DNA from: Ehretia macrophylla
Lineage: Eukaryota; Streptophyta; Magnoliopsida; Boraginales; Ehretiaceae
Length of the DNA: 64,000 nucleotides
Direction: 5' to 3'
Assembly: GCA_037974665.1 (NCBI GenBank)
Contig: CM075772.1
Coordinates: 38,475,052-38,539,051, forward strand
Made by a program: the position numbers and the translations under genes. Below, in pieces: positions 1-44,920 of the stretch (position 1 is its first letter; each line of letters begins with the position of its first letter). The notes below the pieces were generated by a model. That model made no database searches. It had not been told where the DNA came from and saw only the letters and a program-made list of their open reading frames with translations.

Positions 1-1
1 G

Positions 2-3129: not shown

Positions 3130-3249
3130 GAAATAACCGAGTTGCACACTGGAAGAGAAACAACCAAGTTGCAATACCACACCTAAGTTTAAATTGGGAG
3201 CACTACTGTTTTAACGGTCTAAGAGTTTGACGCAACTACATCATTATAT

Positions 3250-4243
3250 ATTATAAGAGAACAACCATTTTGTCATGTGTCGCGTTATGAGCATCTGCAT
3301 ATATTTTTTACAAAAAGTCAAAAAATCATATTATCTTTTACAAAAATTAAATATTATATTATTATATGCAAATATAATACAAAATTAATAACCAATTCAT
3401 TCCAAACTATGACTTCAAGTATATATTTTTGTCATGGGAATGTGTTGAAAAAAGTTAATAACCTATTAAATATATGAGACTTAAAAAATTAAAATTTGTT
3501 CATTTAGTTACAAAATATGGTTTAATGGTCATAACACTTGTGATTAATCTTATAAAATGTATATAATTTACTTTGAATTAATAAGACAAATATAATTTGA
3601 ATTAAACAACTTTTTTAAGTATTAAATTATTTACAATTTCAAATTCATAGAGAATAGTATGATACATATAATACTCTTAATGTATTTCAAACTAAGAAAT
3701 ATGTTTGCGAAGTGAAAACTATAACAAATCTATGTTAGTTTTGACTAATTACAAACCTACCAATGATTTTTAATATATATATACACACACACACATGTTA
3801 GGCATGGTCAAATAAGAAATTTTAGTATAATATAGAGCATTGTTGCATCTTCTATTAAGAAGCATATGCATGGTAAGATTGACCATTGAATTCGTGAATT
3901 CCTAGTGATAAAAAATGGATTTATAAGCAGGTTATATGAGCAAGGAGTAAGAATGATGTCAAACTAGGAAGAGATGATGTGAAGAAGATATATCCATGTA
4001 TCTTTTGGAACGCCTGATCCATGTAAAATAGTGGTTACTATTCCATTTTTAAAAAATAGGTGTTTATATTTATTTATTAATTGTTTATTTATTCTTTTGA
4101 AATGATATAGGAAAGTGGCTATATAGTATAATTTCTCAATAATGTGAATAAAAAATTAAATGAATTGATTTTATATTTCATATTTTTAGAACGTTTACAT
4201 TACACCCGTACGACAACCGTGCATCGTACAGGTATAAAATTAG
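3250..4243 (+). mobile_element. Non-autonomous Helitron-like element (left copy)
   Basis: The 3' end has an imperfect 10-base stem hairpin (4204-4233), then TTAG at 4240-4243 followed by T, close to the Helitron pattern of hairpin, CTRR and host T. From about 3485 to 4243 it is homologous, inverted, to 52416-53060, where a Helitron helicase remnant adjoins. Around 3262-3480 it shares the 'gtcatgtgtcgc' repeat found at 5.1, 12.3-12.5 and 52.3 kb. The 5' boundary is uncertain. No coding capacity is seen. Confidence 0.55.
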
Positions 4244-12541: not shown

Positions 12542-13297
12542 GTAGTTGAATCTCAAAAATAAATATTTTAAAGCATAAAAGACCCAAAAAAATAGAATAC
12601 AAACAGTGACTAATTGAAAAAAGAAAGTAAAATTAAGTGGCTAATCCCATCATTATGTGAAAAGGCCTAAGAAACTCTTAAGTTTTGAAACAAAAGAAAA
12701 TGAACAAATATTGCGAGTCCTCTTTACCAATAGGTGCCGTAAATTTAAGTTTTGACACTTGAATATTATTATTTTGGTCAAGTAAATAATTTTTCTAAAT
12801 GAATAATTATTGGCCAATTTACAAATAGCACGCGCGGAGCACAAGCACCGTTAACGTAGACGAATTTTTTAACAGACAAGATATTATCTACTATTTTATT
12901 AAAATACAAAGAAAAAACATGCAAACCATAAAGGGTAAACGTTCACTTCACATACTATATAAAAAGCTTGTTTAGAATTGATTACCACCTCGATGTAGTA
13001 CGAGCTTGAAGCTTTCTTGGAATTTTTTTTTATTGTATCTCTTTGACATTTTTACAGTACTTTGGTAGACTCGTGAAAAAAAAGGGCTGAAGAGTTCGGT
13101 GATTTTAAACCTTAATTTATATTGCAATTTTGTAACAAATAAGCCTATGAATGTAATTACTCAAGCCCAAAGATGAGTCCATCTTAAAAGATTAGTCTAT
13201 TAGGTGGGATAACTTCTTGTACTTAAGAAGTATCCCTTATGAGAGTGAAATTCTTATGTGAGATCATTACAAATTCGGTTTTACTTTTGATAGTAAT
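12542..13297. repeat. 756-base segment, full tandem unit, with kinase exon 1
   Basis: A new copy starts at 13298 with the same 'gtagtggaatctcaaaaataaa' opening and resumes after the Harbinger insertion at 14843-15040. The right two-thirds (12773-13297) is also found at 44398-44920, where it forms the 5' flank, first exon and part of intron 1 of the kinase gene on the minus strand. A shorter related piece is at 26213-26400. The segment thus marks a duplicated kinase 5' region. Confidence 0.75.
12989..13049 (-). pseudogene. Orphan first exon of the 42-kb kinase family
   Basis: On the minus strand an ATG (13047-13049) opens a Lys/Ser-rich frame matching the first exon of the kinase at 44613-44672, ending at the same GTGGTA donor. 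One extra A in the A-run shifts the frame, and no kinase exons follow downstream to 12.5 kb or beyond. It is a decapitated copy: promoter plus exon 1 without a gene body. Confidence 0.6.
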
Positions 13298-15275: not shown

Positions 15276-15904
15276 CAGTAAAATCTCTTTAAATTAATAA
15301 TATTGGGGCCACAAAATTCTATTAATTTAGAAAGATATTAATTTATCGATAAATTAATAACTATTAATTTATAGAGATATTTTTAATTTTTTTGGCTTTA
15401 TACTAAACATATTATGATTATGATATCTTTTTTTTTGAAATTGACTTGTATTTTTTTGGTCAAATTTAAAAAGATAAGTAATGAGAATAGAAGATAAAAT
15501 TTAATTTAATAATATTAGAACAAAGTTTCTCTAATCTCGTATCCAAGTTCTTGTAGGATTAGGATGAGAACTAATTTCTTAAAATCTTGTATTCTAATCC
15601 TTGTAGGATTATCTCAATTTTTTCTTTTTAAATAATTAAATATGAGATTCAACTAAAAACAAGCTACTCTTGATTCATATTTTAAAAAAACTTCAAAGTC
15701 AATTTATTATGTACTTTTTAACTAATTATTAATTTATAAAATATTTGAATCAATAAAATACAAAGAAATTTTTTTAAATGTATTATCTTATAATTTTATC
15801 AAAATTTTTAATTTTTTATATTGGTCCCAAGTCGAGATTGAACATTTTTATTAATTAAAAAAAATTATTAATTTATCGAGTATTAATTTAAAGAGATTCT
15901 ATTG
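15276..15904. mobile_element. Emigrant-like (pogo/Tc1-mariner) MITE
   Basis: The left end CAGTAAAATCTCTTTAAATT and the reverse complement of the right end, CAATAGAATCTCTTTAAATT, form TIRs with TA on each side (15274-15275, 15905-15906). The CAGTAAAACCTCTATAAATT-type terminus with TA target duplication is typical of plant Emigrant/Lemi elements. At 629 bases with no open frame it is non-autonomous. Confidence 0.8.
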
Positions 15905-16120
15905 TATACCATTCACGTTCATATCATAACCGAAACATCAGAAATTCATGGTCAACAAAATAGAGAATGCTGGACTTAGAGAACATATAAAAAAGCTAGA
16001 GAATGCATGTAAAACTGAACATATACGAACCAGTCCCAGTTCCAATTATATCATAACTGAACTTCAGCACTCAATAGTCAAACGGTTAAATTAAATATCA
16101 AACAGAGCTGAACACCAGTA

Positions 16121-18242
16121 CTAACTACCACAAGCAGCTTCTTCTAGTGTCGAGGACAGCCCTAGAAAATCAGCATGTTTCTTGACGACTTGCAGTTTCA
16201 GTAAATGCTTCAGCACTTGCTTCATTGAAGGGCGGTGATTTGGCCACCCGTTTATGCATTTCATAGCCAACTTTGTAACTTTACGTCCATCAGTGAAACA
16301 AAAATCAGGATCAGTTGTCAAACTTGGATCAACAAGCGAATAGAGGAGGGGCTCTTCGATGCTATCCACTGGGTCACTACATTTGTATCGCTCCCACGCC
16401 CAATTATCAATGAGATGACGTACGTTTTGGGAATCTCTCTGTTCTTCAGTTAAGAGCCTTTTCACCACCAGATTTAGCAATATAACACCAAATGCATACA
16501 CATCTGTCTTTTTTGTCCAATCACCTGTCAGAAGATGATCGAGAGCTATTAGGAAAAGATAGAACTACAGGTTCATGACACACTTCTTGAGTTATGAATG
16601 TGATATCAATATGTAAAAAAGGCAGCCCGGTATATTATGCTCCTGCTATGGGCAGAATCTGGGGAAGGGTCAGACCACTTAAGAGTCTATCGTGCTCAGC
16701 ATTACCTTACATTTGGCAAGAGGCAGTCCATATATGTTTGGACTATAAAATTGCATATGGCCAAAATTGTTACCTAATAGGTGGCATGGAGTTACATATA
16801 TATTCAACTCTTGCATCTCCATTACTCTCTTGTAAAGAAAAGAATTATACGGCTAATGACAAGAAGCAGTGGTTACCAGCAAAAACATAATGATAGGTAC
16901 CAGTGCCTTAAAGTTGCTGTTACACATACCTGATATTATACATGGGTCAATGTAGCCATAGCATCCTCTCAAGTAATAACATTTATATACCGTTCTATCA
17001 GGAAGAATTCCACCGCTGATCATACCAAAGTCGTATAATTTAGGATTGTATTCCTGAATGAAGAATAACTTTAACAACTGCTTAAACAAACAATGAACTT
17101 CTATTCTAAGTGAAAGAAATTGACAACTTGCAAAACGTATTCAAGATAATAAGGAAGGCACAAATCAAACCTCGTCAACAACAATATGAGCTGCAGCAAT
17201 ATTGCGAACCAAGAATGGCTTATATGCTGAATTTCCAGTATGCAAAAATTTAAGAAGACGAGCAAATCCAACAGCAACCTTGATTCTTTGGAGCCAAGTA
17301 AAGCTATCTGTCGACAAGCAGAACTAAGCATCAATAATCAAGTCGGCATGATATCCAGTTACTTTATTAATTGACTGAAACAATATAATGATATATGCAT
17401 CATAGGATTAAAAAAAAAATTTCTACAAAACTTTGAACCGTTTTCCCATGGCAGAGGCAGGGCATTACTAAGGTTATGAACAACCAAATTTCCTGCTAAT
17501 GTACTATGAATTTAGTCAACTTAAAACAGGTGCAGCTTTCTGCCTACACCTCTATATGTATGCCACAACTCGGTAAAAACATGGTCTGCAATGTTCCAAG
17601 CTCTGCAGCATAAGACTAGATTTCTCTCGACTCTTGGCAATGACGTTAGAATAGTACATTATGTACGATTACCAAAAGTCGATAGCACTAATAACAGTAA
17701 TGGTAATTGTAGATCAGATTCAGATGATACAGGGGAACAGAACATTACATACCCTTGAGAACCAGGTTATGAACAATATCCAATGGCTTAAAATTGTAGA
17801 CGGCACCAAGATGTTTACGATCCCAGCAATATCCACATAGCTCTATCATCCCTGGATGACTTATCAATTTTTCATTTCGAAGCAGCACAACTTCATGCTG
17901 AAACAATACAGAAAAGAAGCATTATTACAAGTATGCTTCTGACGATTTCCACTGGAAAGATACTTACTAATTAAAGAGACAAGAATTTTAATTATTCAGA
18001 CAATTACAAACCACGAGTCTGGCTTCATTATCTCCCTTGAAATAAACATATATTTCTGAAGGCTCCCATATCTTCACCATTACATGTCGTGTTTCTTGTG
18101 TAGATTGCTTAATTTTTCCACGGTACACTTTGCCAAACTGGAAAGTACCAAGAAAGTTTTCTTCACTAAAATTGTCAGTATACTCCACCAAGTCCTCATA
18201 TTTCAGCTCATATTTCACCTTTCCAGCACACATAGGTTCCAT
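16121..18242 (-). CDS. Receptor-like cytoplasmic pseudokinase, 5 coding exons
   Basis: Exons on the minus strand are 18242-18012, 17897-17753, 17307-17171, 17053-16930 and 16524-16121. All junctions are GT-AG, the frame stays open, and the product is 346 residues. It reads as one RLK/Pelle-type kinase fold with no signal peptide or membrane segment: a glycine loop reduced to GTFQFGKVY, the lysine in VMVKIW, DFG kept, a GYIDP activation-segment end lacking APE, and the helix-F TDVYAFG. The catalytic HRD is replaced by VRN (in LVRNIAAAHI), and the catalytic-loop Lys and Asn are missing, so activity is unlikely. A scaffold or decoy role as in ZED1-related (ZRK/RLCK XII) proteins is a family-based guess. 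The ATG at 18242 lies 11 bases after a 5' UTR intron acceptor. Paralog: 33234-36188, plus strand. Confidence 0.85.
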
Positions 18243-18253
18243 CTTACTGGCCA

Positions 18254-18884
18254 CTGTTAAGTAGATAGAAAAGAAGACTTCAAGAATTGAAAACTACATT
18301 AGCTTATCAATTCATCAATTTAGAACAAAGCAGATGCAAGAAGAAATAAAAACTAAATTAGCACCTTGATACATATTAAGTGATTTTTCCTATATAAACC
18401 ATGCTTACAATAGCATAAACTCCTTTAGAAAAAATAAAAATAAGGATTGGAAACCTATGGGTGCTAACAGAAAAAAAAAAAAAAATCATTGTGCATAAAA
18501 GATACGTTAAACATACATAGTTTTTAAGACTGAGTCTAATAGCCTCCCTAAATGCTCAAAAAATGCTCCAAGAGATTCCTTATATGCAAAATCTCTACAT
18601 GTATAAAAAAAAATAGACAAACTGTTAGTTTAGCCTAAGAATTGAACCACCAAGCCAAAAAGCTGGCAACTTCGTACATAAAACGCTAAAAGAATTTTTA
18701 CATGCTAAAAGAAAAGCAAAAAATTAAAAATAAAAAGTAAATCACCTTCCTGCACATACATACATAATGTTAAAAAGAGACAGAAAAAAAATCCAATAAA
18801 ACAGACATATGAAAACGAAATTGGTTTTTTTTTTAAAAAGAAAAGGATAAAAGAGGTTTTGAAGTTGCAGACGAGATCACATAC
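18254..18884 (-). other. 5' UTR intron of the minus-strand pseudokinase gene
   Basis: Inferred by comparison with the paralog. The donor GTATGT starts at 18884 after 'aactaacta', and the acceptor ACAG ends at 18254, just before the coding exon. The plus-strand paralog has a matching donor (31445) and acceptor (33225). A short MITE-like fragment near 18530-18620 lies inside. Confidence 0.6.
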
Positions 18885-19065
18885 TAGTTAGTTTGGCTGC
18901 TCTTTGGGGTCTCTCTCTCCAAAAGGACAGGAGAAGCTTCGAAGGAGGTACGTAAACCCACACGACAAAGCAGCTCTCAAAGTGTTTTTTTATACTACTT
19001 GAGAGGATCTATATAAGATTGCTTGCGCACATGTCCGTGTCCGTATGTGACTATGTGGCCCAACC
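18885..19065 (-). promoter_or_regulatory. Core promoter and 5' UTR of the minus-strand pseudokinase
   Basis: The reverse complement matches 31240-31445 upstream of the paralog over roughly 150-180 bases, including 'gagctgctttgtcgtgtgg', 'acctccttcgaagcttct' and 'ttgggccacata'. TATATAGA (19008-19015 on this strand) is the likely TATA box. The two CACGTG boxes of the paralog are not kept here: ACATGTG sits at the equivalent place. This suggests the two genes are controlled differently. Confidence 0.6.
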
Positions 19066-19811
19066 CCAACCTCAACCTATTATATTCGACTCTAAAAACT
19101 CCAACCAGATCCCAACAGTGTTTAGCAATTGAGGGGTAACTTGTTTAATTTATTTTTTTTAACAGATTTTATGTAAAAATTAAAGTTTTAAAAAATTAAA
19201 TAGATAAGAATCTCTAAATCAAAACTTTTAGAAAAAGATGGAACTATTTTTATATTATGTGGCAAGTTATTTCTCTTTTCCTTTTCACGAAAATATCTTT
19301 TTATATTTTTAAAAATTTAACATTGGCTCAAAATTTTTAAAAATCCAATATACGCCAACTGATCAAAACTTATGTCCAACACCACTATCCAGCCCCCATA
19401 TTTTACGGGAGCTTTAATTTGAAATTCAAATCCCACAAAAATGAAAGAGTAGACTTGATCCTCCGTATCATCCAACCTCAAATGAACATAGATAAACTAT
19501 AAGATTAAAACTGAAATAATTTTTTTTTAAAATATGCATTAGTGAAAAGTTACACTGAACTTGAAGGATGGCCTTGGGAATGTCAATACTTTTGTTTTCA
19601 AAGCATAAACCATTTTTGACTTTCCAAACTCGTCGACAGGAAAAAGCAATCTTTTATGTTACTTTGAGAAGGTTGCCAAAAAACACAACATATAAGGCGT
19701 ACTCAATAAAACTTATAGGCAAACCTAGGGTCGGCCCAAGTTAAGGACAACTTGGGCTTGTGCCCAAGATCCTTTAGCAAAAGGGCCTTAATTTAAAGAA
19801 TTTTTTTTAAA
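19066..19811. other. Intergenic; nothing recognised
   Basis: AT-rich upstream sequence. At 19725-19770 a GC-richer patch contains the short inverted words 'gcccaagtt' and 'aacttgggc', which adjoin the long hairpin and may be part of its transposon. No gene. Confidence 0.4.
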
Positions 19812-23067: not shown

Positions 23068-24995
23068 TAGGAACGACAATGGGGACAGATTTTGCGGATA
23101 TCTACTATACCCCAGCCCCAAATAGGGCGGAGATTAGGATAGGGGTGAAGAATAACTTTTAATCCTTGTGCGGGGTGGGCCGAGGCGGGGAGATAAGCAC
23201 TTTTCGCCTCACATAAACTACCCCACATAATATAGAGTTATTTTTATATCTTTAGTTTTACATATGTACTGAAATTTTAAATTATAAATATAAAAGTATA
23301 GAAAAATAATATTAGACAAAGTATTGTAAAAGAAATAGGGAAAAAAAAAATTATTGAAAGTATTTTGTAATTATTCTTTTAATCAAAACCATTACATGTC
23401 ATTACTTGACCTTCCTTTTACTATTGATCACAGTGTAGTTAAGAAATTTGTCAGTTATTCCTAGTTGTACTTCAAAATCGTTTCAAACAACATAATTAAG
23501 AATATATTTTAAAGATTTATAATTGCTCTTATATGTGACATGTGATAACCGAAAAAATTATAATCATCAATGCGATCCCAATAAAACAAAAGTATTTTTT
23601 CCACATATAATTCTCATACACAAAGACTCTAGTCAGAATTCATTTTAAATGCTTAAGACTCAATTACTATAATATTATCTTTACTATGTAACTGCAAGCA
23701 TAAGAATCAATATATAATTAATATTTAGCTTTATTTAAGACCTATATGTATATTCATTATTACTATAATTGTAATTTATATTTTTTTAAGTTACATGGTT
23801 TAAATTAAATTTAATTTCATAAAGTTTAAAGAATAATAGAAAACCCACTAGGATGTGGGGGCATGGCGTGTGTTGAGGGCATTTTTTAAGTCGTGGAGAT
23901 ATGTATCTCGCTCCAAACCCTCTCTATTGTAATTCCTAATTACAATGTTCTACTTTATATCGTGTATGCCAGTGCATTGTGGATTAATTGTGTGAGGCTT
24001 ATTTTCTGAGGTATAAATAAACTATACCATAATTACATTAATTTTTCAATGAATCATTACTCAACAGAACATCATGACAACTAAATTATGTGTTAAGTTG
24101 TATGTAGGGATAATTATCGGTAGAGACATCGCACATTGCAATAATCTAACCGTACTTTGACCTTTACACTGAGAAGTTGCTCAGTCAGCTTGCTATGGTA
24201 TAGCAGCCTCTCATATCGAGTATAAAGCAGCACATGGGCAGATTTTGCAGGAGATTTGGTAGAAAATGGGTAATGGGGCGAAAGTGGGGATTAACTTTTA
24301 ACTCTCGAACAGGGTGTGGGGATAAGCTTTTTCTATCTATATAACCCAACCCTAGATACATGTATAGTTATTTTTCTAGATTTAGTATTGCATAAAGCTA
24401 TAAATATAAAAGTATAAAAAAAATAACATTAGAGAAAGTGTAATAAAAATGGATAATAAAAAATATATTATTCAAAATGATTTTGTAATCAAGACTACTA
24501 CATGCATTACTTGAAATTTACTATCATTTGACATAAATACTTCCATTTCTATTGATCATCATGGACTTAAGGAATTTGTTAATTGTTCCTAGTTGTATTT
24601 CAAAAATAGCAACAAACAACATAGTTAAGGATGATATTTAGAGATTTTTAATGCTTAAGACATAATTATTATACTATTATTTTTACTATTTAACTACATG
24701 TATAAGACTCAATATATAATTGACATTTAACCTTTATTTAATACCTATATGTATAATATCATTACTATAATTATAATTATATTTTGAAATTATGTGATTC
24801 AAGTTGAATTTAATATCGCAAGGTTTAAAAGGATAATAAAAAAACCCGGGGGTAATCCCCATTCACCATAGGAAGTTGGGGATGGGTCGGAAGCGAGGGA
24901 TGGGGTATACTACGCGGGGGTGGGTAAGTGTTGCAGGGAGTTTTTAGGTGGCAAGGCGAGGCGTGGGGATAGGTCTCTTCATTCCTAAATTCATC
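23068..24995. mobile_element. hAT-like non-autonomous element with internal duplication
   Basis: The left end TAGGAACGACAATGGGGAC and the right end (reverse complement TTTAGGAATGAAGAGACC, then CTATCCCCACGCC) resemble the TAGGRATGRCAAYGGG termini of plant hAT-type elements. The inside is GC-rich near both ends and AT-rich in the middle. About 23220-23860 and 24340-24845 are diverged copies of one another, each followed by a G-rich end block. No transposase is seen, and a clear 8-base target duplication was not found. Confidence 0.45.
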
Positions 24996-25602
24996 TCATT
25001 GTCATACCTTGTTGTATTGCATATAATTTATATTTATGATGATATCGAAAAAAAAATTCGTTTATAATTTTAACCGAATCTTGCACGCAAAAATTTACTT
25101 CTAGGTACATTTTTTTTTTGCTGGGTTACTTCTAGGTACATTTCGAACAAAATTCCCTCATATATTCAGAAACAGTCATACAAACTAAATTCAATGACCA
25201 GTCAAATATATACATAATTCTATTGTGGTTAATTACAAATAGTCAGACAAACGAAATTCAATGGTTTGTCAAATACATGTATACATAATTCTACTATAAT
25301 TATAAAATATATATTTTTTAACGTTTTAAGCATAATATCATAATATTAACCTTTTCCTTCATTCATTAATAGAGCTGATCTGTCACTTCTATAGGTTGGG
25401 ATTGAAAAGTGAAAGTTATAAAAAATAGATATTTTTCTTTAAAAAAGCTGGTGCTAGTTAGGTTGTTTTGTTGGCTACTAAGGCGATCTCCAACAACTTC
25501 CTTATAGTTTTCTTTACATGTAGAGAAACTTAACTTCGAAAAAATAACAACCAATGAAAATCTCATAGAATTTAATAAGAGGAAAAATCCATATCGAATC
25601 TT
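24996..25602. other. Intergenic; nothing recognised
   Basis: Two short direct repeats ('acttctaggtacatttcg' type at 25098-25145; 'cagtcatacaaactaaattcaatg' type at 25175 and 25240) and a MITE-end-like 'gcgatctccaacaacttcc' at 25482. No gene. Confidence 0.4.
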
Positions 25603-26213
25603 TTGCTTGATATATATTGTTTTTATTAAAACAATATTGATTATACACTACTGCATTTCTAATTTTCGTTTTCCTCGGTTTAATGGATGCAAAGGATGGA
25701 ACCTAAGTTGTTCAACGATGAGAAGTTGACGGAAATAACAAATAGATTTTCCAAAGAAATTGGTAGAGGTTCATACAGTATTGTTGATAAAGGCACAATA
25801 GAGGATGAAATAGTAGTAGTGAAGGCATACCCAAAAATATACCAAGGCGTCTCTAAGAGTATGGACCAGTGGTAGCAATTAACAAGACGGAACTCCAAAA
25901 TAGTGGAGAGTGTCAAATTTATGATCTTACAAGAGCGATTTAACCCCTACTACCATTAGACCATACCCTTGAGTGCAGGGTATATTTTCGCATATGCCTT
26001 CACTGCTACAACTTCATCCTCTATTGTCCCTTTAAAAATAGTACGGTATGAACATCTACCAATTCTTTGAAAGAAATTATTTGTCATTTCTGTCAACTTC
26101 TTATCGTTGAACAACTTGGGTTATGTCCTCTGCATGAATAAAACCGAGGAAAACGAAAATTAGGAATGCAGTAGTGTATAATCAATATTGTTTTAATAAA
26201 AACTATATATAGA
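25603..26213. repeat. Palindromic inverted duplication of a kinase exon
   Basis: The left arm (about 25603-25885, plus sense) and right arm (about 25940-26213, minus sense) are inverted copies, estimated at 85-90% identity, with a ~55-base spacer. Each arm holds intron sequence ('aacaatattgattatacact') followed by the kinase exon that corresponds to 43106-43264 of the kinase gene at 41.9-44.7 kb. A transcript across it would fold into a ~270-base stem whose arms match that gene's second exon. Confidence 0.85.
25687..25875 (+). pseudogene. Kinase N-lobe fragment (left palindrome arm)
   Basis: The frame encodes a kinase start region: EPKLFNDEKLTEIT, a glycine loop GRGSYSIVDKG, and VVVKAY with the ATP-contact lysine, then runs out at TAG 25875. 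It matches exon 2 of the minus-strand kinase gene (43264-43106). No further kinase exons follow on this strand, so it is a fragment of about one exon. Confidence 0.75.
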
Positions 26214-26296
26214 GTTTGTATAGATTTGATTACCACCTGTATGTAGTAGCAAATGGAAGCTTTTTTGGAAGCTTTTTTGCTGTATCTTCTTGACAT
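25980..26296 (-). pseudogene. Kinase exon 1 plus degraded exon 2 (right palindrome arm)
   Basis: Exon 1 is intact at 26296-26237: ATG, 20 codons rich in Ser, Lys and Tyr, then the GTGGTA donor, as in the kinase gene. Exon 2 (about 26130-25980) keeps the sequence but has disruptions, for example 'aggacataacccaag' where the gene has 'gaacccaaag', and a glycine-loop change. It then meets the palindrome centre, so the rest of the kinase is missing. The 5' flank to about 26400 also matches the kinase gene's. Confidence 0.65.
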
Positions 26297-26682
26297 TTTT
26301 ACAAGTAATGTTAGTAGACTTGTGATAAAAAAAAAAAGAGTGAATAGTTCGATTGTTTAACAGCTTAATTTGTATTGCAATTAATTTGTAAGAACGAGTT
26401 GTTCCTATCATATGGTTGTAAACTTGGCTATAATCAAGAAACTTTATTTTGCATCAACAAATGTTGGGACCATACTCTCATTCGAAGAGCCACTTTTATG
26501 TATTTTAATGAAGACGTTGCCATATCTGAAGTATTTGCAATTGCTCTATCAAGTACATATATTGAAGAGTCAGCTTGTTGATTGCTATTGTTATGTAAGA
26601 TATGACAAGTCAGTGCTTGATTTAAAAACTTCAACTACTAAAGAGTATATTGTGACAGAAAACTGGCAATAATGCTAAAAAA

Positions 26683-27537
26683 TCCTTGTCAATTTGCTTT
26701 TTAAGTTCAAGAATGTATCCATAAAGTTTAGTTTTCCTTTGGTTTATTTCATCCAATTGTCTCCGAAATAATCTAACATCACTCCTAGCTGCCTCTAGTT
26801 CTTTCCTCAGCTGCTCCTCTTCCGCACGAACTACTTTATTGTCCATGGTTAACATTTCTAGATCCTGTAGAGCGATCTTCAAGAAAAAAGAGGAGAAACT
26901 TATTAGTCACACATCATTATAATTAGAGCGGCACTATATAAAAGTAAAAAACGAGTAATAAAAAAATGGACGATATCTAGTATTTCTCTTGTAATTAACG
27001 AACAAAGTTAACAACTATTTCTTACTTTAAGATATCCCTCAAGACTCTTTTTAGGCTCATCTATAACTTTCCCCAAGTCCAAGCGTTTCCACTCATGTTA
27101 AATCTTTGGTTTAATATGAGCTTTAGAAATAGGCTTCTCTTTTGCCTGTTGAATTTCCTTAAGAATCCGCCTCTCATCGACCAAATTATTGCATCCATGT
27201 TGCATGCGATGACACAAGCTCTTAATATATTTTTGCTCGTCTGTCTCACCCTGAAAAATGAAAAAAAAAAAATTAAACATGATTAGTATAACTTAAGATA
27301 TTAATATCAAGAAAACAAGGGAACAAAATGTCATAGTATCAAATTGTTTTTTGTTTCATTGATGGAATTTAATCTTACATGTTCATTTTGCTACTGTGAT
27401 GCTCCACGGCCATGCAGAGCTTTCTGCAGTAACTCAATTTTCATTCTTGTGTCGACAATCTCACTTGTGAACCCATGGCAATATCGTCTGCGATATCGTA
27501 TGTATTTCACTGTGGGAGTTAAGTAATTTCGATCCCA
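26683..27537 (-). pseudogene. PPI1-like coiled-coil protein, broken gene fragment
   Basis: Three exon-like pieces on the minus strand: 27537-27379 (acceptor TATAG, donor GTAAGA), 27250-27026 (donor GTAAG) and 26876 to about 26683. They encode a charged coiled coil: VKYIRYRRRY, then IKSLCHRMQHGCNNLVDERR, ILKEIQQ, then AEEEQLRKELEAARSDVRLF and KLYGYILELKKQIDK. This order resembles proton pump interactor 1 and its plant relatives, which bind the regulatory tail of the plasma-membrane H+-ATPase. In-frame stops at 27391-27393 (TAG) and 27098-27100 (TAA), and no detectable N- or C-terminal exons, mark it as a pseudogene. Family assignment is from recalled motif order. Confidence 0.6.
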
Positions 27538-28269: not shown

Positions 28270-29664
28270 TGTCACGACCTGAGTCCAGACCCCCGAGCTC
28301 GCAGGCGCGACTAGTGTTCTAAGCATAAGAAACATGTACTTAGATCTATTTCCTACTAGCCCAAAATTGTTAACTCAAGTTATTCTTTATACCCACAACA
28401 TCCATTTATAAACCACACAATCACACTATCTCCCACCGATGTGGGATATCACATACACCCCCGTTAAGGACCTAATATCCTCATCAGAGGCACACATACC
28501 TAGGACCAACCAGGCGGTGAACGATTTTAGAGATGACTCCTATAGGTTAACGATATGGTTTCCACCGTCTATTTAATGTAGCACTTTGTCCCGTATAACA
28601 CTTAACTCTCCTATCGGCTAGTGAACTGCTTTGAATACCATTCTATCACGCCCTGAGCCCGAACCCCGGACCCGCATGTGCGACTGGTGTTGTAGGCATA
28701 AGAAATAATTACTTGGGCCTCTTCCTACTAGCCCAAAATAGTTAATCCAAGTTGTCTCTTATATCCACAACACCCACTTATATACCACACAATCACACTA
28801 TCTCCCACCAATGTAGGATGTCACATACACACCCCTTTAAGGACCTGACATCCTTGTCAGGGGCACGTAAACCTAGGTCTAACCAGGCGGTATAGGATTT
28901 TAGAGATGGCTCCTACGGGTTCAAGAGGTGGCTCTCACCAACCTTCTAGGTGTAGCACTTTGCCCCATATAGCACTTAACTCCCCCACCAGCTAGTGACT
29001 GATTTTGATACAATTCTGTCACGCTTCGAGCCCAGACCCCCGATTAGTCATAGCATTTTGTCACACATAGTACTTAGCTCTGGCACCGATTAGTGACCTG
29101 CTCTGATACCATTCTATCACGCCCCGAGTCCAGACCCCCGGACCTGCAGACGAGACTAGTGTTTTAGGTATAAGGAACAACTACTCGGACCCTCTTTTCT
29201 ACTGGCCCAAAATGGCTAACCCAAGTTATTCCTTATACCCACAACACCCATTTATAAATCACACTATCTCCCACCGATGTGGGATGTCACATACACCCTT
29301 GTTAAGGACATGATGTCCTCGTCAGGGGCACACATACCCAGGACCAACTAGGCGGTAAAGGATTCTAGAGGTAGCTGCTACAAGTTCAAGAGGTGGCTCC
29401 CACCAGCCTTCTAGGTGTAGCATTTTGCCTCGCATAACACTTAATTCTCATATCGGCTAGTGACCTACTTTGATACAATCTGTCACGCTCCGAGTCCAGA
29501 TCCCCGAGCTCATAGGCGCGACTAGTGTTTTAGACATAATAAACAACTACTTGGGTCTCTTTCCTACTGACCCAAAATAATTAACTCAAGTTTTTCCTTA
29601 TATCCACAACACCCACTTATAAATCACATAATCACACTATCTCTCACCGATATGGGATGCCATA
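28270..29664 (-). mobile_element. Tandem TRIM retrotransposon array (5 LTRs, 4 internal segments)
   Basis: Read on the minus strand, LTRs of about 180 bases begin TGTGATATCCCACATCGG or similar and end GTGACA. Each is followed by GAATGGTATCA, an initiator-Met tRNA-type primer site, a ~190-base internal segment without coding, and a purine stretch (AACGGGGGTG) before the next LTR. LTRs are at 28270-28453, 28644-28825, 29017-29045 (truncated), 29115-29291 and 29481-29664. The pattern LTR-internal-LTR repeated head to tail fits terminal-repeat retrotransposons in miniature (TRIM) expanded by unequal recombination. It moves only with helper enzymes. Confidence 0.8.
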
Positions 29665-31239
29665 GTTGATCCATTGAAGACATTCTTCGTAAAAATTACT
29701 AAAAATAATGATACAAATTAAAATTTAAAATAAAAAATAAAAAAGTTTCTATTCTTGTCCCTTTTTCTTTTCCCTTTTCCTTTTTCTCTTGCATTAGTTC
29801 TTTTTTTCATATTTTTTAATCTCTTTTGGCCATGCTTCTTCCTTGAAGGGCTTAGAAATTAAATTTCATTTAGTACTATTTATTACTTAACTTATAAAAG
29901 AATTCCTTGCTCTTTTCACAATGGGTTCACATTGGATAAGAATTTGGGTAAATGCTCGTGGCATTGAAACTTCCAGAATAGCTTAGTGGGGTTTTCAACA
30001 AAAATCATTTCTCGTATAACTTATGCTCCCAACATAATATAGTTGATCTGATTTCTAACTTTACCTTGATGTCACGAATTTTCCAATTTTTAACCAAATT
30101 ACCTTTTTTTTTTCTTAATTCACAAGAAAGTCTTAATCCATACAAACATATCAAATGATGTTACTTGTAAGAATTGATCTCGTAATTGTATAATAGTGGG
30201 TTAATTATCACGCATAGTCTTGGTTAACAAAGACTACATTAAAAATGAATAGTATACCATAATTGTCAGATTAATTTTCATAGTGTATTTTTCGTTTAAC
30301 ATTATTATGCACCATACAGGAGTGTACAGGTACTTTCTACTTAGCGTTGCTATATTTCTATCAATTACATTAAATTGTATAGTAGCATCATATTATATTA
30401 TAATTTTTTTAGATTTTTTCTTAGGTTTAATTTTATTTACGAACATTAGCATCGAATGATGATGGGAATGGGTCAAATAAGCTTCCCTAATGCCTGAAAA
30501 TGGACAAAGCAAGATTGACTAAATTGTGTGGAAAGGGCTCAAAGACGTGTTGTAACCAACTGTGAAAAATCAACCGAATATTCTAGACTGAAAACATGAT
30601 TTATTAGTCCTTGAAAGTTTTTACTCTTTTTATTAAGTATAATTCTACAAAAAGTATGATTCACCTTAATTGTTGGACTGTAAAATCTATAAATTTCACG
30701 TCGAAAAAGTCTAGATATTTTTAAATTGATTTATTATTTATTCAATTATATCCAGTTTATTCAGCATTCAGCACATGCACTCTTTTAAAATAGAAATATC
30801 ACCCTTTTATCTGAAAATTAGGTTTAACATGTAGAAATTAGGTATAATATGGGTTTGATTGAATTAGAGTCAAGTGCAAAATGCCAATATTAGGGGCTGA
30901 AACACTATAATAGAACATTTTTAGATTAATACTCGATATATTAGTAATCTCTTTTAAACAATAAAATTATCTGATCCTGACTTGGAATTAATATAAAAAA
31001 TTAATCTCGATAAAATTATAAGATAATATATTTAAAATATGATTTTTATTTTTGTATTTATAGGCCCAAATATTTTATAAATTAATAATTAATTAAATTC
31101 TAAATAATAAATTAATTATGAAATTTTCTTAAAACATACACGCGCTATTGTAGGTTTTACAAGATGTATCCAAGACGTTCTAGGTCTAGGACGTTTTGTA
31201 GAATTTTCAAAACTGGTTTGGTTTGGGACTCGTAAATGA
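29665..31239. other. Intergenic upstream of the plus-strand pseudokinase
   Basis: AT-rich, no gene found. About 30920-31130 carries 'ttaattaattaaattctaa'-type sequence reminiscent of decayed Emigrant-like ends, but TIRs could not be paired. Confidence 0.4.
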
Positions 31240-31444
31240 TGGGTTAAGGTTGAGGTTGGAGTTGGGCCACATACGGACATGGCCACGTGCGTAATACTAG
31301 TATCTTATATAAACCCCCCTCACGTGGTGATTAGAAAAACACTTTGAGGGCTGCTTTGTCGTGTGGTTGCCGGTACCTCCTTCGAAGCTTCTTCTGTCCT
31401 TTTCTTGTCGTTTTGGAGAGAGACGCCCAAAGAGCACCAAACTA
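31240..31444 (+). promoter_or_regulatory. Promoter and 5' UTR of the plus-strand pseudokinase
   Basis: TATATAAA at 31306-31313 is the TATA box candidate. Two CACGTG G-boxes flank it, at 31284-31289 and 31321-31326; in plants these bind bZIP or bHLH factors. The block from 'ttgaggttggagttgggcc' to 'aaagagcaccaaacta' is conserved with the minus-strand paralog's promoter at 18885-19065. Transcription probably starts near 31335, and the UTR exon ends at the GTATTT donor at 31445. Confidence 0.6.
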
Positions 31445-31683
31445 GTATTTCAACTTCGAAACCTCTTTTATCTTTTCTTTCTCTTTCAATTTTCTTTTTT
31501 ATATGAATATGTTTCATTGGATTAATTTTCTTTTCTCTCTTTCTTTTCCTTTTGTATCTCGAATGTTTCGTTTTCTCTTTTCTTTTTATGCATCTGAAAA
31601 TTTGAATTTTTTTGCCTTTATTCTGTAAACTTGTTGACTTCGAGTAAACACTTTTTATTTTTGTTTTTGTTTTTTTAATTTAG

Positions 31684-31694
31684 GTATATATATA

Positions 31695-31746
<52 letters not shown>
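31684..31746. repeat. (TA)n microsatellite
   Basis: About 30 TA units with one interruption, in the 5' UTR intron. Confidence 0.95.
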
Positions 31747-31749
<3 letters not shown>

Positions 31750-32406
31750 TCACGAATGTGGATTTTTTTTTTCTACATTTATTTTAGCTTGTGGAAATCC
31801 CGTTAGCCTTTTTATAAAGTTGTTAGCTTTTGGGCCTGAGTTGCTCAATTCTTTTGCTTCTTAGGAACTCAGTATGTTTATGTACTTATCATGCACAAAT
31901 ATGATTTTTTATTTATTTTTCTTTTGAATGAGCATGTATAAAAATTTAAAAATTTAGCCCTTTTCTTCATATAAAAGCTTTGAGATTGTGAAAAGGATTG
32001 CTCATGCACCTAGGCGTCTGAACTTTATTATAAAAAAAATAATTAAAGAATGTAAGTTTATACAATTGTAAGCATGGTTTTGTATAGAAAAAATGACATA
32101 CTTCTGTATCAAGTTGTTATTTTTGTTATCCGGGTGTTGACTGCCAGGATTATTCACATGATCCCTGTGATCAAATTGAGATTCAAATTTGTTATCAATG
32201 ATGTAAACTGCTTAAAACCTCTTTGAAGTGTTGACATGCATAATTGATTTGTCACCCTATGCCTTTTAAAATGTGAGTTTGATTTAAGTTTGTAATAATT
32301 TTATGTTGTGCGTGATACTGTGAGTGAGTACTAGTTTCTGCTACACATTTGCTTCTGTAATGGGATGGAAAATTGTAAAGGTGAAAGGGATGATATTGGT
32401 AAAGAT

Positions 32407-32613
32407 CAGTGTTCGAAAAGGCGCACCTTAGAGGCGAGGCGCACCCTCATCGCTTAAAAGGCCTAAGACAAGGCGATTTTATCTAGGTGCACCAAGGCGC
32501 ACGAGGTGACCGCCTTGGTCGCCTTTTGTAAAATAGTTATATTTTGTCAATATTTGTCTTTTGTTTTGGTAGTATGTGTTTAAATTACAAAAATACCCTT
32601 GACCTTTTGATGA

Positions 32614-32651
<38 letters not shown>

Positions 32652-32849
32652 ATGTGTGTGTGTGTGCAAGATGTTTTTGAGTCAAAAATTATTTAATTAA
32701 AGCTTCTATCTTAGTGTTCTTTAATTTCGTAACTTATTTTTCATAAACATAAGAAATGTACCTTACTTTGCTCAGGCACGTGCCTTCGCATTGCGCCTTG
32801 CACCTAGACACTAGGACTCCCTATCGTTTTAGTGCCTTTTTATACACTG
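32407..32849. mobile_element. hAT-type MITE in the 5' UTR intron
   Basis: Ends CAGTGTTCGAAAAGGCGC and (reverse complement of the right end) CAGTGTATAAAAAGGCAC, flanked by 8-base near-identical duplications GTAAAGAT (32399-32406) and GTAAAGAG (32850-32857). Subterminal AAGGCG/CGCCTT words recur. The inside has a TA-TG microsatellite (32616-32664). CAGTG ends with 8-base duplication fit hAT. No open frame. Confidence 0.8.
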
Positions 32850-33233
32850 GTAAAGAGGAATGCAATTTTCTTTGTGTGATTATGAGGAAATGGTGGGCGT
32901 GAACTCAGATGGCCGTCCTTGCATTACCATAGTGGTTGCAGTATTAGGATACAATGTACCCTTCTTTGCGCATCCTTATATAAAGGAAAATGTTCTCTAG
33001 CTGCACGTGTTTCTATTCATTTTATGCATACTTACCAGTAGTTACATATATATTGTTATTACTTGCTAAATGTGGTTTAATCTGAATCGATGAATCGGTA
33101 TGCTAATGTAGAATAGTATATAACTAACAGACAATGATTCTTTCTAGTTTTCATGTCTCGTAATCTTTTCTGATTTTTCATTTCTTCACCTCTGACATTA
33201 TTTCCATCTGCTTTAATTGGAACAGTGGAGGGA

Positions 33234-36188
33234 ATGGTGGATCATGGTTTTGCTAGAAGGTTGAAATATAAGGAACTACCGATGTTTACTGACAATTTTA
33301 GTGAAGAAAACTTTGTTGGTATTTTCCAATTTGGCAAAGTGTACCGTGCAAAATTTCAGCGGGTTCTACCTCAAACAGATGATGTGATGGTGAAGATATG
33401 GGAAGTTCCAAAGCGTAATGAGTATTTCCAGGGAGTTAATTTAGCTGGAGTGATGGTTCGTTATTTGAATAACTAAAATCCTTGTGCTTCTAATTAGTAG
33501 GTATCCTTTATGGATCCTCAGTATCATACCAGTGATTGCTTATTTTGTGTATCCTTTTCAGTATGAATTTGTTCTACTTAAACATGAGAGACTGACAACA
33601 CACCCAGGGATGATAGATCTTCTTGGATTTTGCTGGGACGGTGAACATCTTGGTGCCCTTTATAATTTTAACCCACTGGATACCGTTCATAACCTGATCC
33701 CTAAGGGTACGCATAATTCTGTGCCCTATTTTATCCAATATGATGTACAATTACTTGTAAATACTCAATGATCTAGTAGTATCTGAATATCATGTCGAAT
33801 TGATTATTGATGCTAAGTTGTGTTTACTTATAGATAGCTTTACTTGGCTCCAAAGAATCAAGGTTGCCCTTGGATTTTCTCGCCTTCTTAAGTTTTTGCA
33901 TGCTGGAAATTCTGCATATAATCCATTCCTGGTTCGCAATATTGCTGCTGCTCATATTTTGGTCGATGAGGTTTGATTTGCGCCTTATCTCATGATTTCT
34001 TTTTGTAAGTTTGTCATTTTCTTTCATTTGTCGGAAGAGAGGAATGAAAGCTCATTGTTTCTCAAAGCAATATATAAACTTCAGTTATTTTTCATGCAGG
34101 AATACAATCCCAAATTACATGACTTTGGCATGATTACTGGTGGAATTTTCCCTGATAGAGTGATGTATGAATGTAATGGATGCTATGGCTACGTTGACCC
34201 AAATATTGGCTACTCAGGTATGTGAAATTGTCAACGGTAAGAAGTAGGTTTATGCTAGTATCCACGGTTTCCTTTCATTCCCATAATTCTTTTTTCTGTA
34301 AAAAAAAAAAAAAGTATAGAACATACGAGGGTTAAATATGTTTGTAAGTCCACCTATTAAATTACAAGTTTGGTCTGCAATGTCAAAGTTCAACATATAT
34401 TGACCGTCTATGGTCTATGAGGAGTTATTTTGTGGTTGGTGCTTAAAGCACAATTTTGTTGTCCTGTTGTTTATGTGAAACTACAGAGAGGTTAGCAGGA
34501 TTAAGATGTATGAAATTCCCCTCCCAATTGAGGTGTTTTTTTTTCTCGGAAGAGCCGAAGGCAACATGCTGGTGGGAGATTATTTGAGAAAAAGGACAGT
34601 GCTTTATGTGTACTACTGTTTTTGGGTTAGAAAGATGAAATATCTAGTCACTTAAAAATTACGTAGTGTTATGCTAAGATCATTTTTGGGAAACTTGTCA
34701 CTTTATGTTTTTGGACTAAAATGGGTTATAGCAAGAGCAATAAGGGAGATTTTATTTAGCTTGAGATATGTATAAGACTTAGAAGGAGGGGGAGATTGTA
34801 GGAGGCTGCTCTATTATGCCTCCTGCCAATTGTGTGGAAGGAGATAAACTTGAGAACCTGCAAATGAGGGCAAATTCCCTTCTAAGACAATGAAGGAACT
34901 TGAACTAAACTAAGGGATGGAAAGCATAGAGGAGAAAAACTTGTAAAATTATGGATAGTGGAAGAATCAACTTCTTAGAATTTCCAAGCCGACTGTTTCA
35001 GGCATTTTCTAGGCTGTGGCATCAGCAACTTTCTGTGCTAATGATATGCATGACTGATCTGTAGGTCTAGACATTATAATTGCTAGCAATTTAAGTCTGC
35101 CCTGTTACTTGTATTTCCTTCTTGATGCTGTTTTGAAGTGGGAAATAACTTTTGCAATGTAGAAGTTTCAGAAAGCTAACCTGGATACGAGTGTGGCAAA
35201 ATGCCTCGTTACAGGATATGTCAAATGACTGTAATTGGATCTTACATGGGTGAAGCAATGTTAAATGTGTTAGGTGCTGTACTGAACTGTAAGACGAGAT
35301 GAAGTCTGTTGATTTACATTTGTCAATTCCAAGTCATACCATACTGCTGCTCTACTCATCCAATCCACTTAGCTTGGACTATAAGCCATGTCATGGAGCC
35401 TGTTACTTATTGGTTAAATATCGGATTTCTATTCTTTTCTGTTTTCTGGGCGGGGAGTGGGGAGTGGGGCGTGGGGGTGGTTGTAGTGAGTTGCAAAGAT
35501 GTTTTGTAGGTATCTCTTTTGGAGTAATTCCTGGCAAATTGCTGAAGTTGTGGAATCAGGCACTTTTTGGCTATTATGTTAGCCTTGCCTTGCAGTTCTA
35601 AAGTTCATGAAAATGCCGTATTCACTAGGTATATCACTCATTATAACTGAAGTGATGGAAGTATCATCAGGGACAATAACTGTTGGTGTCCCTGATCCAA
35701 TTGATTTTCTCTTCATGATATGAGAGATGCTTCTTATGTTTTGAAGCAATAAGTCTTGAAATTATATCCTTATCGTTTCCTAATAGCTTTTTGGCATCTT
35801 TCTCACAGATAATTGGTCAGAGAAGTCGGATGTTTTTGCATTCGGAGTTGTATTGTTAAACCTAATAACCAAAAGAGTTGATACAGAAGAAGAAGAAGAT
35901 AGGCGCTCCAATGCTCCTCTCCTTTATTCTTGGGCCTGGGGTCTATTCGAATCTTGTGAATCAGAAAACAGCAACGGAAAGTTCACCCTTTCACTTGTGG
36001 ACCAAAATTTAACATTGGATCCTGATTTTTCTTTAACGGATGGACATGAAATTACAGATTTAGCAATGAAATGCATAAATAGAATTGCAGATGAACGTCC
36101 TACTATGAAGCAAGTTGTGAAGTCTTTGCTGAAACTGCAAGTGATCAAGAAACATGCTGAGTTTCTGGGATTGGCCTCCAAATTGTAA
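33234..36188 (+). CDS. Receptor-like cytoplasmic pseudokinase, 5 coding exons
   Basis: Exons 33234-33455, 33562-33706, 33834-33970, 34100-34217 and 35809-36188 join in frame through GT-AG junctions to 333 residues. Exons 2 and 3 match the paralog's lengths exactly (145 and 137 bases). Kinase landmarks: GIFQFGKVY, VMVKIW lysine, DFG in LHDFGMITGG, GYVDP, SDVFAFG, and a C-terminal KKHAEFLGLA shared with the paralog. HRD is replaced by VRN and the catalytic-loop Lys and Asn are absent. The acidic residues where the paralog has NEARLV have become NLAGVM, so the helix-C Glu may also be lost. Activity is therefore unlikely. A short EEEED stretch lies before helix G. ZRK-type adaptor function is possible but unproven. 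Intron 4 is 1.59 kb versus 405 bases in the paralog. Confidence 0.85.
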
Positions 36189-37082
36189 GCTGGTGTTGAT
36201 GGTTAGTACCGTGTTTCAGCTCTGTTTGTTATTTAATCTTTACCTTTTAGCTATGAAGTTCTGAAGGTTCAGCTACGATATTACCGGAACTACAGCTGGT
36301 ATATGTGCAGTCTTTCATAATGTGAAAAGTCTTCAAAATGTCTTGGATGTTTAACATCTAGGACACAGCCCATGGGGCCCACATTGACGTGTGTTTTCAT
36401 GTGCCAAAGAGAAATTGTGGGTCCCATAAACGTTTTGAAAACTCTCCCTTTATAATGTTATGGAACTCTAGCATTAGAAGCATATTGAACCAAGAGTAGT
36501 AGTTTTAGAAACTAGTGCTTTGAGACTTTATTTATGTCATCATTTTAAAATATTGTAATACTATTTAAATTTCAGTACAAATTCTTATTTATTTTCTGTA
36601 AATCTGGCATTGGATGTATTTAGCACTAATGGTGTTAAGTGGACATTGGATGATTTAGATATTTGATAAGGTCTTTTGGGACTTTATTTACTATTCCAAT
36701 TTTATGAGAAAGATTCAATCGGAAAGGAAACAATCTAACCTAGCAAATTTGGCAACATAATTAGAAGAATAATTTGTTTTTATCTTTTTTTTTTTTTCTA
36801 AGTAAGCAAGTATTTTTATTAAGTTCAACAATTCAATACACAGACTTATAACATCTTTACACAAATGAAATCCAAAACTCATATCTTCTATTTTTCACTT
36901 TCTACAGATAATTCTATTCAAAGAACTACTCCTGAACCAACTTGAATCTTAAGCTGGACACTATTGATAATTTTGCCAAACAATTGCTCCTCTCTAAGGT
37001 AGTTTCGCATGTCCAATCTATTGGTTGTTCTAATCAAATTGATGCTAAAACTAGTGGGATCAAGAGAGCGACCATGTTTTTA
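36189..37082. other. 3' flank; possible reverse-oriented retroposon tail
   Basis: The pseudokinase 3' UTR presumably ends in the first few hundred bases. From 36787 a T-run is followed by 'aagtatttttattaagttca' and 'acacagacttataacatc', which looks like the reverse complement of a polyadenylated 3' end and could be a retroposon tail or an antisense transcript end. A 96-codon frame at 36942-37232 crosses the next MITE boundary and is not credible. Confidence 0.35.
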
Positions 37083-39349: not shown

Positions 39350-41914
39350 GGTGATTAGTTTTAGGTCATATAATGAATTCTATGGTTTTTCGAGTGAGAT
39401 TATGTTATTAGTTTGGGGCGTGCTTGTTTGTAATATTGGCATTAAAAATGTGCTGATGTGAAGCTGGTAAGTGCTAAGATTGGCTATGGATGTGCTTATT
39501 TTGAAGGCCAAATTGCATATTCCCGCCATCAAGTTTGATTGGTCAGATTAAATCGAGGATGAAAGTCGAAAAGTGCATATGAACGTCCAAGGTCGATGGT
39601 GAAATTTATAAAAACTTAAAAATTTGTGAAGGTGTCAAGAGTTTGCAATAAAATTACATGACCATGTTTCGTTGTGAAAAGAAGAGAGAGACAACGTTAA
39701 CAATAGAACACAAAGAGAGAAAAATATATATAGATAGACAAATAGTAATTTATATTAATTTTTTGGTGCAACTTTCATGATGCAAAGTGTTTTACTTATT
39801 GCAAAATTTAATGACGTAACCATAGTTGGGCCATCCACTTTCCAAAAAAAGCGTTAAAAAATTTATATATTTTTAATTAAAATAACTAATTAGACCCCAT
39901 TAAAAAAAAAGAAGTTTAATCATATAGTTAAAAAATAATAAGTTGAGCCCCTATGGATTCAATCTAGTACTATTTTGAGAGAGATTATGATTATGAATCA
40001 GAGTAGCTAGGTCAATATCTATCTTAATAATTTCATAGTAGTTTTGAGTCTCAAAGATTTTTGTGTGGCTGAAAACTGAATAGTCGCTGAACACCTTAAA
40101 ATTGCTCAAAATCATTAATCTTTTAGAATAAAGTATACAAAAATTACATTTCATTAATAAATATTCAATTTAACAGTTCCTAATAGAAAATATTTTATTG
40201 AGTTCTGAAGGTTTAGAAGGCTTTGATTATTAGTTCTAATTTCATGATTTTTGAGGTAAATAAGATTTACCCTTCTTTCGTACTCCTTTATTGATCAACA
40301 AATTTTGTTCCACACTTCGTTTCTTTTACCTCTCATTATTGATTATGAAGCAATTCATTTACTGTGTGGGCTAATGTTAGTATAGAAGCAATAACATACC
40401 ATGTTACTCAACCCGTACGTGGATCATAAGTGATGTAAAATTGAAGCCTTACTTTCCTTGTCTCACAATTGAAAGATGATATTTATCTATTTTCATTTCT
40501 TATTTCTTAATTTTTTTGGTTCGAAGTGAAGCTTTATTTATTTTTATTTAATTTAAGTTATTTTACAATCATAAAAGTTATTATACATGAAATTTAAATT
40601 CAAGATCTCTTACATTTAAAGCCATAAATATATCCTTCGACTAGACCAACCGGCTAGTGGTAAGGGAACCCTTACTTTAAGTTCGTTGTCTCACAACTGA
40701 AGCCTGATAACTATCGAGGTCGTAGCTCATCTCATCTGCAATCCTGTCTTAGTTGTTCTTTTAATGACCATGCCAACCACCGAAATAGCTGTTCTTTTGC
40801 AATTTAGTTCCTGTAGTTGTCTTGATGATCACGCCAGAAGTCGTCGTTTCTGCAATTTTTCGTCAGTCGTCGTCTTCCTTCTTAATAACCACTACGATGA
40901 CGGACTGCAACTTTTGTTGCCCCTTTTCTTAATAACTATGTACGACGATGAACAACGATGGGGATGGGGATGCTATCTAGCTCCAACGATGTTGCCCTGT
41001 TCCACTCTCTCTCATGGCTGTGGAAAGGTAATATTACTATTTTAAGTTATTCATCAGATTTCCTAAACTATCTATTCTTTGAATATATATATAGTATTTA
41101 ATAATAAATAAAAAAACTAAAACAAAAAAAATCGATATGGGTTTTTTCCTCTTATTAATTTCAATCATATTTCCATTGATTGTTATTTTTCCTAAGCTAA
41201 GTTTCTTTCTTGTTTATGTTTCTTCTTCGTCTTCTTTTTTTTCTTTTCTCCAACTCTCCTTTTTCTAGTCGTAATCTCTTAGTGAACTCCAACCTGTCTT
41301 ACCTCACAGATCCAACTCTCCTTTTTCCAGTCATAATCTCTTTTTTGTAAAAACAATTAAGGCAAAGTTTATCAACAATGATAAGCGAAGTTTGATAGTT
41401 TGCAGTGAGGCTGTCTAAACTGTCATGCCAATTAGTTCGTGAAATTTCCTTACAATTGTTTATATTGTTAATACTAATATGACATGTGGGTAAAGATGAA
41501 TTTCAAACTTGTATACCCCATATAAGTAAAGGAGTAGGAAAACATCATCTGGAAATTAGCATAAAATTTTGACAATATATTTCTTGAACAGTGAAAGGAA
41601 CCATTACACCAATTCATTTTGACACAAAAAAAAAAAAAAAAAAAACTCAGTACAATAGCTTTGCCTACTACCTAATCTTGAGACAACAGTGTTAAGCCGG
41701 ACTCCTACGTAGAATAATACTCTATACAATGCTTTGCTTATCGTGTAACACTACTCCAGTCTCCACGGATTGGACTTCTATCAAGAGTCCGGCTAGATTG
41801 TGTACATCTTCTAGACCTGTTCTATATAATGAATGCAAGAGCACGAAAGCTTTTCATCCGCAAATACGTTTACTTTGAATGGCGATAAACAAGTGTACAT
41901 ACAATGAGGAGTCA
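39341..41914. other. Intergenic downstream of the kinase gene
   Basis: No supported gene. A 93-codon frame at 40764-41045 is the least AT-rich part ('ccaccgaaatagctgttc', repeated 'gtcgtcgt') but looks like degenerate repeat. 41269-41340 contains a direct repeat around 'ccaactctcctttttc'. An A-run at 41626-41645 could mark a retroposon insertion. Confidence 0.4.
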
Positions 41915-44672: not shown

Positions 44673-44920
44673 TTTTACAGTACTCTTGGTAGACTCGTGA
44701 AAAAAAATGGCTGAAGAGTTCGCTGATTTCAAACCTTAATTTATATTGCAATTTTGTAATAAATAAGCCCATGAATGTAATTACTCAAGCCCAAAAAAAA
44801 GTCAATCCTAAAAAACTAGTTTATTAGGTGGGATAATTTCTTGTACTTAAGAAGCACCTCTTATGAGAGTGAGATTCTGATGTGAGATTATTACAAATTC
44901 GGTTTCACTTTTGATAGTAA
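44398..44920. repeat. Kinase 5' region, copy of 12773-13297
   Basis: It follows 12773-13297 closely, including 'aacatgcaaaccataaag', 'gtaaacgttcacttcacata', exon 1 and 'acttttgatagtaa'. Similarity ends at 44920, exactly at a Helitron terminus; the 13.3-kb copy continues with T, so the insertion was between A and T. Confidence 0.85.

Follow-up and report, generated by a model that had tools for sequence, protein, structure and literature searches.

The window analysed here (64,000 nucleotides of contig CM075772.1 of Ehretia macrophylla) harbors, at 25611-26211, two facing copies of a kinase gene piece that lie near enough to each other to pair within one transcript, and we consider that this locus is probably a passive, ordinary inverted duplication of a kinase pseudogene fragment in the course of decay. 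A preliminary description of the same DNA had placed a palindromic duplication of a kinase exon at this site and proposed it as a hairpin-RNA locus directed against a nearby kinase gene. Alignment of the arms confirms the inverted repeat at that site, and the hairpin-RNA idea retains its anatomy, its fold and its targeting match, but it gains no sign of maintained function, as the tests for selection came out neutral. The features of the palindrome and its surroundings are as follows.

Left arm: 25611-25875, plus strand, with the kinase sense on plus; the end of intron 1, a piece of exon 2 from 25699 to about 25846, then a 3' extension.
Loop: 25876-25949, 74 nt, delimited by global alignment of the arms.
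Right arm: 25950-26211, minus strand, with the kinase sense on minus; an inverted copy of the left-arm piece.
Outer stem block: 25611-25681, plus strand, with its partner at 26141-26211; 2 differences in 71 columns, a candidate gene-conversion tract.
Extension of about 29 nt, left copy: 25847-25875, plus strand, from the arm alignments.
Extension of about 29 nt, right copy: 25950-25978, similar to the left copy, with gaps, from the arm alignments.
Exon-1 copy, MSRRYSKKASKKASICYYIQ: 26237-26296, minus strand, with an ATG at 26296 and a donor GT at 26236-26235.
Altered TATA-like motif: 26363-26378, minus strand, TACAAAT where the other two family copies have TATAAAT.
Exons of a coiled-coil gene or pseudogene: 26631-27250, minus strand, pointing at the palindrome, read by eye.
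Related kinase gene copy with its 5' flank: 41912-44762, minus strand, gene model by eye.
Exon 2 of this kinase: 43106-43264, minus strand, from the same kind of model by eye.
Third family copy: 12770-13296, minus strand, limited to the 5' flank, exon 1 and the beginning of intron 1, 89% identical to 44394-44920.

Over 267 aligned columns the two arms share 226 identities, with 34 mismatches and 7 columns of gaps; their exon-2 ends point at each other and the whole stem-loop spans 601 nt. They are closely spaced, as had been described, although the loop is 74 nt by global alignment and not the approximately 55 bases first given. Among the 25 listed of the 88 inverted pairs in the window (at least 60 nt long, spacing up to 2 kb) this palindrome is the longest, and the BLAST E values within the window (6e-77 between the arms, 7e-51 between left arm and kinase, 3e-46 between right arm and kinase) mean that neither the arm match nor the kinase matches are due to chance. 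An assembly artefact of read folding is unlikely, because the arms differ at 41 of the 267 columns.

The kinase gene near 43 kb yields a joined protein that matches the Pfam family Pkinase (6.2e-33) and, among solved structures, best resembles the plant kinase PBL2 (4.9e-21). By BLAST, the left arm is 79.1% and the right arm 78.3% identical to it (43117-43332, minus strand). The arms do contain intron 1 and exon 2 as previously suggested, but exon 2 is incomplete in BLAST matches (of its 159 nt, the left arm holds the first 148 and the right arm the first 145) and is followed by a foreign stretch of about 29 nt. This extension occurs in both arms, is absent from the kinase and has no further copy in the 64-kb window beyond the two arms (BLAST), and a 9-nt insert in the intron part is likewise the same in both arms, with the kinase lacking it. 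Since the extension and the insert are common to the arms and absent from the kinase, the piece appears to have been cut and joined before it was mirrored. The region of the arms thereby combines the traits of a duplicated, unprocessed pseudogene, i.e., intron 1 is kept, exon 2 is cut after about 146 nt and the coding signals are broken. In the right arm an in-frame TAA stands in place of the first exon-2 codon of the kinase; speaking against plain decay, the internal frame of the exon-2 piece is open over most of its length in both arms, although this amounts to few codons. Next to the right arm, exon 1 and 5' flank are present as had been reported, with the difference that family homology reaches only as far as 26394, some 98 bp upstream of the ATG, and not to 26400. 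On the other side, a repeat at 25524-25637 borders the left arm and recurs at 41089-41206 (80%), some 0.7 kb past the 3' end of the kinase. On the minus strand, the loop and right-arm end (25876-25978) contain TGGTCTAATGG, which resembles a tRNA-type box A, and the extension of about 29 nt might conceivably be the head of a decayed tRNA-derived SINE.

In the 43-kb kinase copy, ATA replaces the exon-1 start ATG of the family (44600-44700, minus strand), so this gene is perhaps inactive and may not be an active target. In the 13-kb copy an extra A in the A run of exon 1 shifts the frame (13000-13050, minus strand), and, judging from their sequences, all three local copies of the family look damaged. 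Intron 1 of the 43-kb kinase also carries a 132-bp tandem duplication (43285-43532, 88%) that overlaps the segment matching the outer stem of the palindrome.

Divergence along the arms proceeds at two speeds. Over the 61 columns of the outer block that are common to the three sequences, only 2 differences separate the arms, against 10 and 12 between the arms and the kinase, while the inner part shows 31 arm-arm differences in 157 columns and 28 and 33 between the arms and the kinase. Exon 2 separates all three sequences by similar distances (27, 26 and 29 differences over 146 nt); a greater closeness between the arms than to the kinase is thus seen when whole arms are compared and within the outer block, but not throughout. 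Given its 10 and 12 differences from the kinase, the outer block is not a slow-changing segment; it is the arms that became alike. An equally similar 71-column window was reached in 92 of 20,000 column shuffles, a figure that has to be read knowing that the block and its length were picked after the alignment had been seen. Of 5000 shuffles, 157 contained an identical run as long as the longest one between the arms (39), and a split at the intron/exon border gave a borderline contrast (8 arm differences of 88 vs 27 of 146, Fisher p 0.059). The best arm-arm windows of 21 and 24 nt do not stand out (3566 and 2476 of 5000 shuffles). Should the pattern be genuine, gene conversion from arm to arm is the simplest reading of the outer likeness. 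Constraint on pairing could alternatively account for the near identity of the outer block; keeping the pairs by compensatory change would then have required several double changes, since the arms agree with each other against the kinase at up to ten outer sites.

From these observations we infer an order of events in which a kinase-family pseudogene, consisting of 5' flank, exon 1, intron 1 and most of exon 2, would have lost everything beyond about position 146 of exon 2, with foreign sequence joined at that point. The end of intron 1, the exon-2 piece and some of the foreign sequence would then have been copied alongside in mirror image, leaving a loop of 74 nt between them, and both arms would have drifted since without coding constraint, the outer 71 bp having seemingly been homogenized not long ago, with arm-to-arm gene conversion as the simplest cause. 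If the locus is transcribed, e.g., by read-through from the upstream coiled-coil gene, its RNA would form the hairpin, and dicing could yield mixed siRNAs. A different origin, compatible with the other readings of the locus, is that two separate pseudogene copies of one truncated ancestor ended face to face. We regard this as possible, if rather doubtful. It would agree with the inner parts of the arms being no closer mutually than either is to the kinase, and with the outer flank of the left arm being a different repeat, found also at 41089-41206. The similar foreign 3' extension, the halt of pairing at matching places and the mere 74 nt in between, however, are more simply explained by a single local event.

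An active natural hairpin-RNA locus, in which siRNAs produced by DCL2, DCL3 or DCL4 would silence the kinase family through mRNA cleavage or RNA-directed DNA methylation, is the reading that the preliminary description had in view. The fold of 25603-26213 (611 nt), which that description had put forward as a check, reaches about -327 kcal/mol on either strand, a value that 0 of 20 shuffles matched on each, and the predicted fold on the plus strand includes an uninterrupted helix of 63 bp, yet such stability is what any inverted repeat of this kind must show. Arm identity is also sufficient in principle for pairing and for targeting, i.e., not too low for either, which the preliminary description had named as a ground for rejecting its idea. 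When scored against the kinase gene in its unspliced, intron-containing form, 73 of 245 antisense 21-mers from the left arm and 67 of 242 from the right arm reach at most 4, the best score among 200 shuffled left-arm 21-mers being 5.0; the upper limit of 4 is named in PMC1790633. The best antisense 24-mer, from the right arm, pairs with kinase exon 2 with 0 mismatches and 1 G:U. Matches scoring at most 4 on both strands of the window number 16 outside 25300-26500 and 43090-43600, vs 874 inside, the latter including those of the palindrome to itself. This targeting match exists because of descent and is no evidence of function. Imperfect pairing would not in itself be an obstacle, as silencing of a reporter persisted with hairpin transgenes mismatched at one position in four (PMC9263138), and natural precedents exist in the poplar ARR17 repeats (PMC9636151) and the snapdragon color locus (told in PMC6139297), both discussed below.

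Selection gave no signature in any of our tests for it. Over the 146 nt used for exon 2, the arm-arm differences fall 10/7/10 on codon positions 1/2/3 (of 49/49/48), those between left arm and kinase 8/5/13 and those between right arm and kinase 13/6/10, and the even arm-arm spread is as expected without coding constraint, bearing in mind the small numbers and the little power that the codon-position, G:U and conserved-block tests have at such length. With this even spread and the broken right arm, a coding function of either arm was rejected. Differences between the arms that preserve pairing through G:U number 10 on the plus and 8 on the minus transcript; selection on pairing via wobble was likewise rejected, there being no bias between the two. 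Fahlgren et al. (PMC1790633) read stronger conservation of the miRNA region as an indirect sign that young miRNAs are under selection. Blocks of 21 or 24 nt conserved beyond shuffles were found neither between the left arm and the kinase (3523 and 4497 of 5000 shuffles reached the observed value) nor between the right arm and the kinase (2233 and 1038 of 5000), and a conserved block of miRNA size was therefore discarded as a candidate.

The case for transcription of the palindrome from its own family promoter is also weakened. A promoter reading from 26.4 kb had been proposed, and exon 1 with about 98 bp of flank is indeed there; the TATA-like motif is altered, though, and the homology further upstream is lost. 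The motif GCAATATAAATTAAGG, common to the 13.1-kb and 44.7-kb copies, reads GCAATACAAATTAAGC at the palindrome, and homology to the family flank ends about 16 bp above it (26394), whereas similarity between the 13-kb and 44.7-kb copies extends about 160 bp further upstream than the equivalent of this position; the comparison comprises three copies, and a TATA-like match does not by itself prove a promoter. The splice signals of intron 1 persist in the right arm, and a minus-strand transcript spliced there, at sites chosen by eye, would read 22 residues and then TAA. Its predicted fold is -267.9 for 690 nt, vs -359.7 for the 797 nt of the unspliced form; because the best-paired outer stem derives from the intron, it would be lost on splicing. 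The exons of the coiled-coil gene or pseudogene point at the palindrome, which makes read-through maybe the likelier route of transcription. The first of these exons, read from its first base, meets a stop at 27100-27098, and the frame of the last had no Pfam match above the cut-off. Taken with the 43-kb kinase copy that lacks the family ATG, the altered TATA-like motif with its lost upstream homology, the neutral tests and a best-paired segment that a still-encoded splice would remove lead us to consider an active hairpin-RNA locus unlikely. We also consider a more particular version very unlikely, namely that gene conversion keeps the intron-derived 71 bp paired, so that the locus would stay a nuclear source of siRNAs matching intron 1 and exon 2 and would act via DNA methylation rather than mRNA cleavage. 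That the locus would be a young MIRNA gene yielding one main DCL1-dependent miRNA seems scarcely credible to us, even though such genes have been described as arising by inverted duplication of a pseudogene from the target family (PMC3237417 and PMC1790633) and 228 of 250 (plus) and 217 of 250 (minus) 21-nt windows on the 5' arm pass duplex limits on the predicted fold (at most 5 unpaired positions, asymmetry at most 3), as the foldback of about 600 nt exceeds the 300-nt limit of current criteria as given in PMC9569937 (a review that also names a few longer tomato precursors), no block of miRNA size is conserved towards the kinase and no Rfam MIR family was found in 24500-27500 up to E 1.

The palindrome can be set beside several known systems. 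Mirror-image pseudogene copies have been described as a source of MIRNA genes by Zhang et al. 2011 (PMC3237417) and Fahlgren et al. 2007 (PMC1790633), and the loci in question likewise consist of facing pieces of a family member that form a long hairpin, with family similarity along both arms. Those loci were found via known or sequenced small RNAs, whereas the palindrome is known from sequence alone, measures about 600 nt and has no miRNA-size block that stands out. The Y-linked partial ARR17 inverted repeats of poplar (PMC9636151) are similarly partial inverted gene copies with a hairpin between facing segments; there, 24-nt siRNAs and methylation of the target are reported, while the evidence in Ehretia is genomic and the family promoter region is incomplete. 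Tpd1 and other hp-siRNA loci of maize and teosinte (PMC11390486) share with the palindrome a long non-coding hairpin of high predicted stability, but for Tpd1 22-nt siRNAs with a reported target are on record, and the approximately 600 nt of the palindrome fall far short of the 4,480-bp hairpin precursor given in the same article. The snapdragon color-pattern locus, as told in PMC6139297, is also an inverted duplication and is described as a likely intermediate towards a miRNA gene; small RNAs, selection and a phenotype are reported for it, in contrast to the neutral selection tests of the palindrome.

In 24500-27500, Rfam gave up to E 1 only sR4 (26481-26534, E 0.14), far below its gathering score and outside the palindrome, and ARAGORN (bacterial code) predicted no tRNA in the 64-kb window; a known RNA family or a tRNA-like element at the palindrome was rejected, as neither program gave one. 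Plasmid records gave no match. Elsewhere in the window, a second, different kinase-like inverted pair occupies 15677-19078 and 30906-36318 (70-81% alike in pieces); of two frames scanned in its right-hand copy (30906-36318), one matched a Pfam kinase family and the other nothing. A tandem array of long repeats lies at 28270-29662, its copies being 76-84% alike in pieces. The ends of the window (1-4829 and 59082-64000) are near-identical (97.7% over 4.2 kb and 99.6% over 0.7 kb) and include a copia-type element together with flank past its long terminal repeat. Such ends suggest a tandem duplication of about 59 kb or a duplication in the assembly, and there may be a second copy of the palindrome outside the window.

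The two-speed divergence of the arms, if upheld, would provide a useful test of whether gene conversion prolongs the life of such hairpins. Should the locus be active, it would represent a local small-RNA regulator linked to the nearby kinase family. If it is silent, as we consider probable, the palindrome would offer a clear example of the raw material for hairpin small-RNA genes, i.e., a truncated family member that was mirrored and is now decaying.
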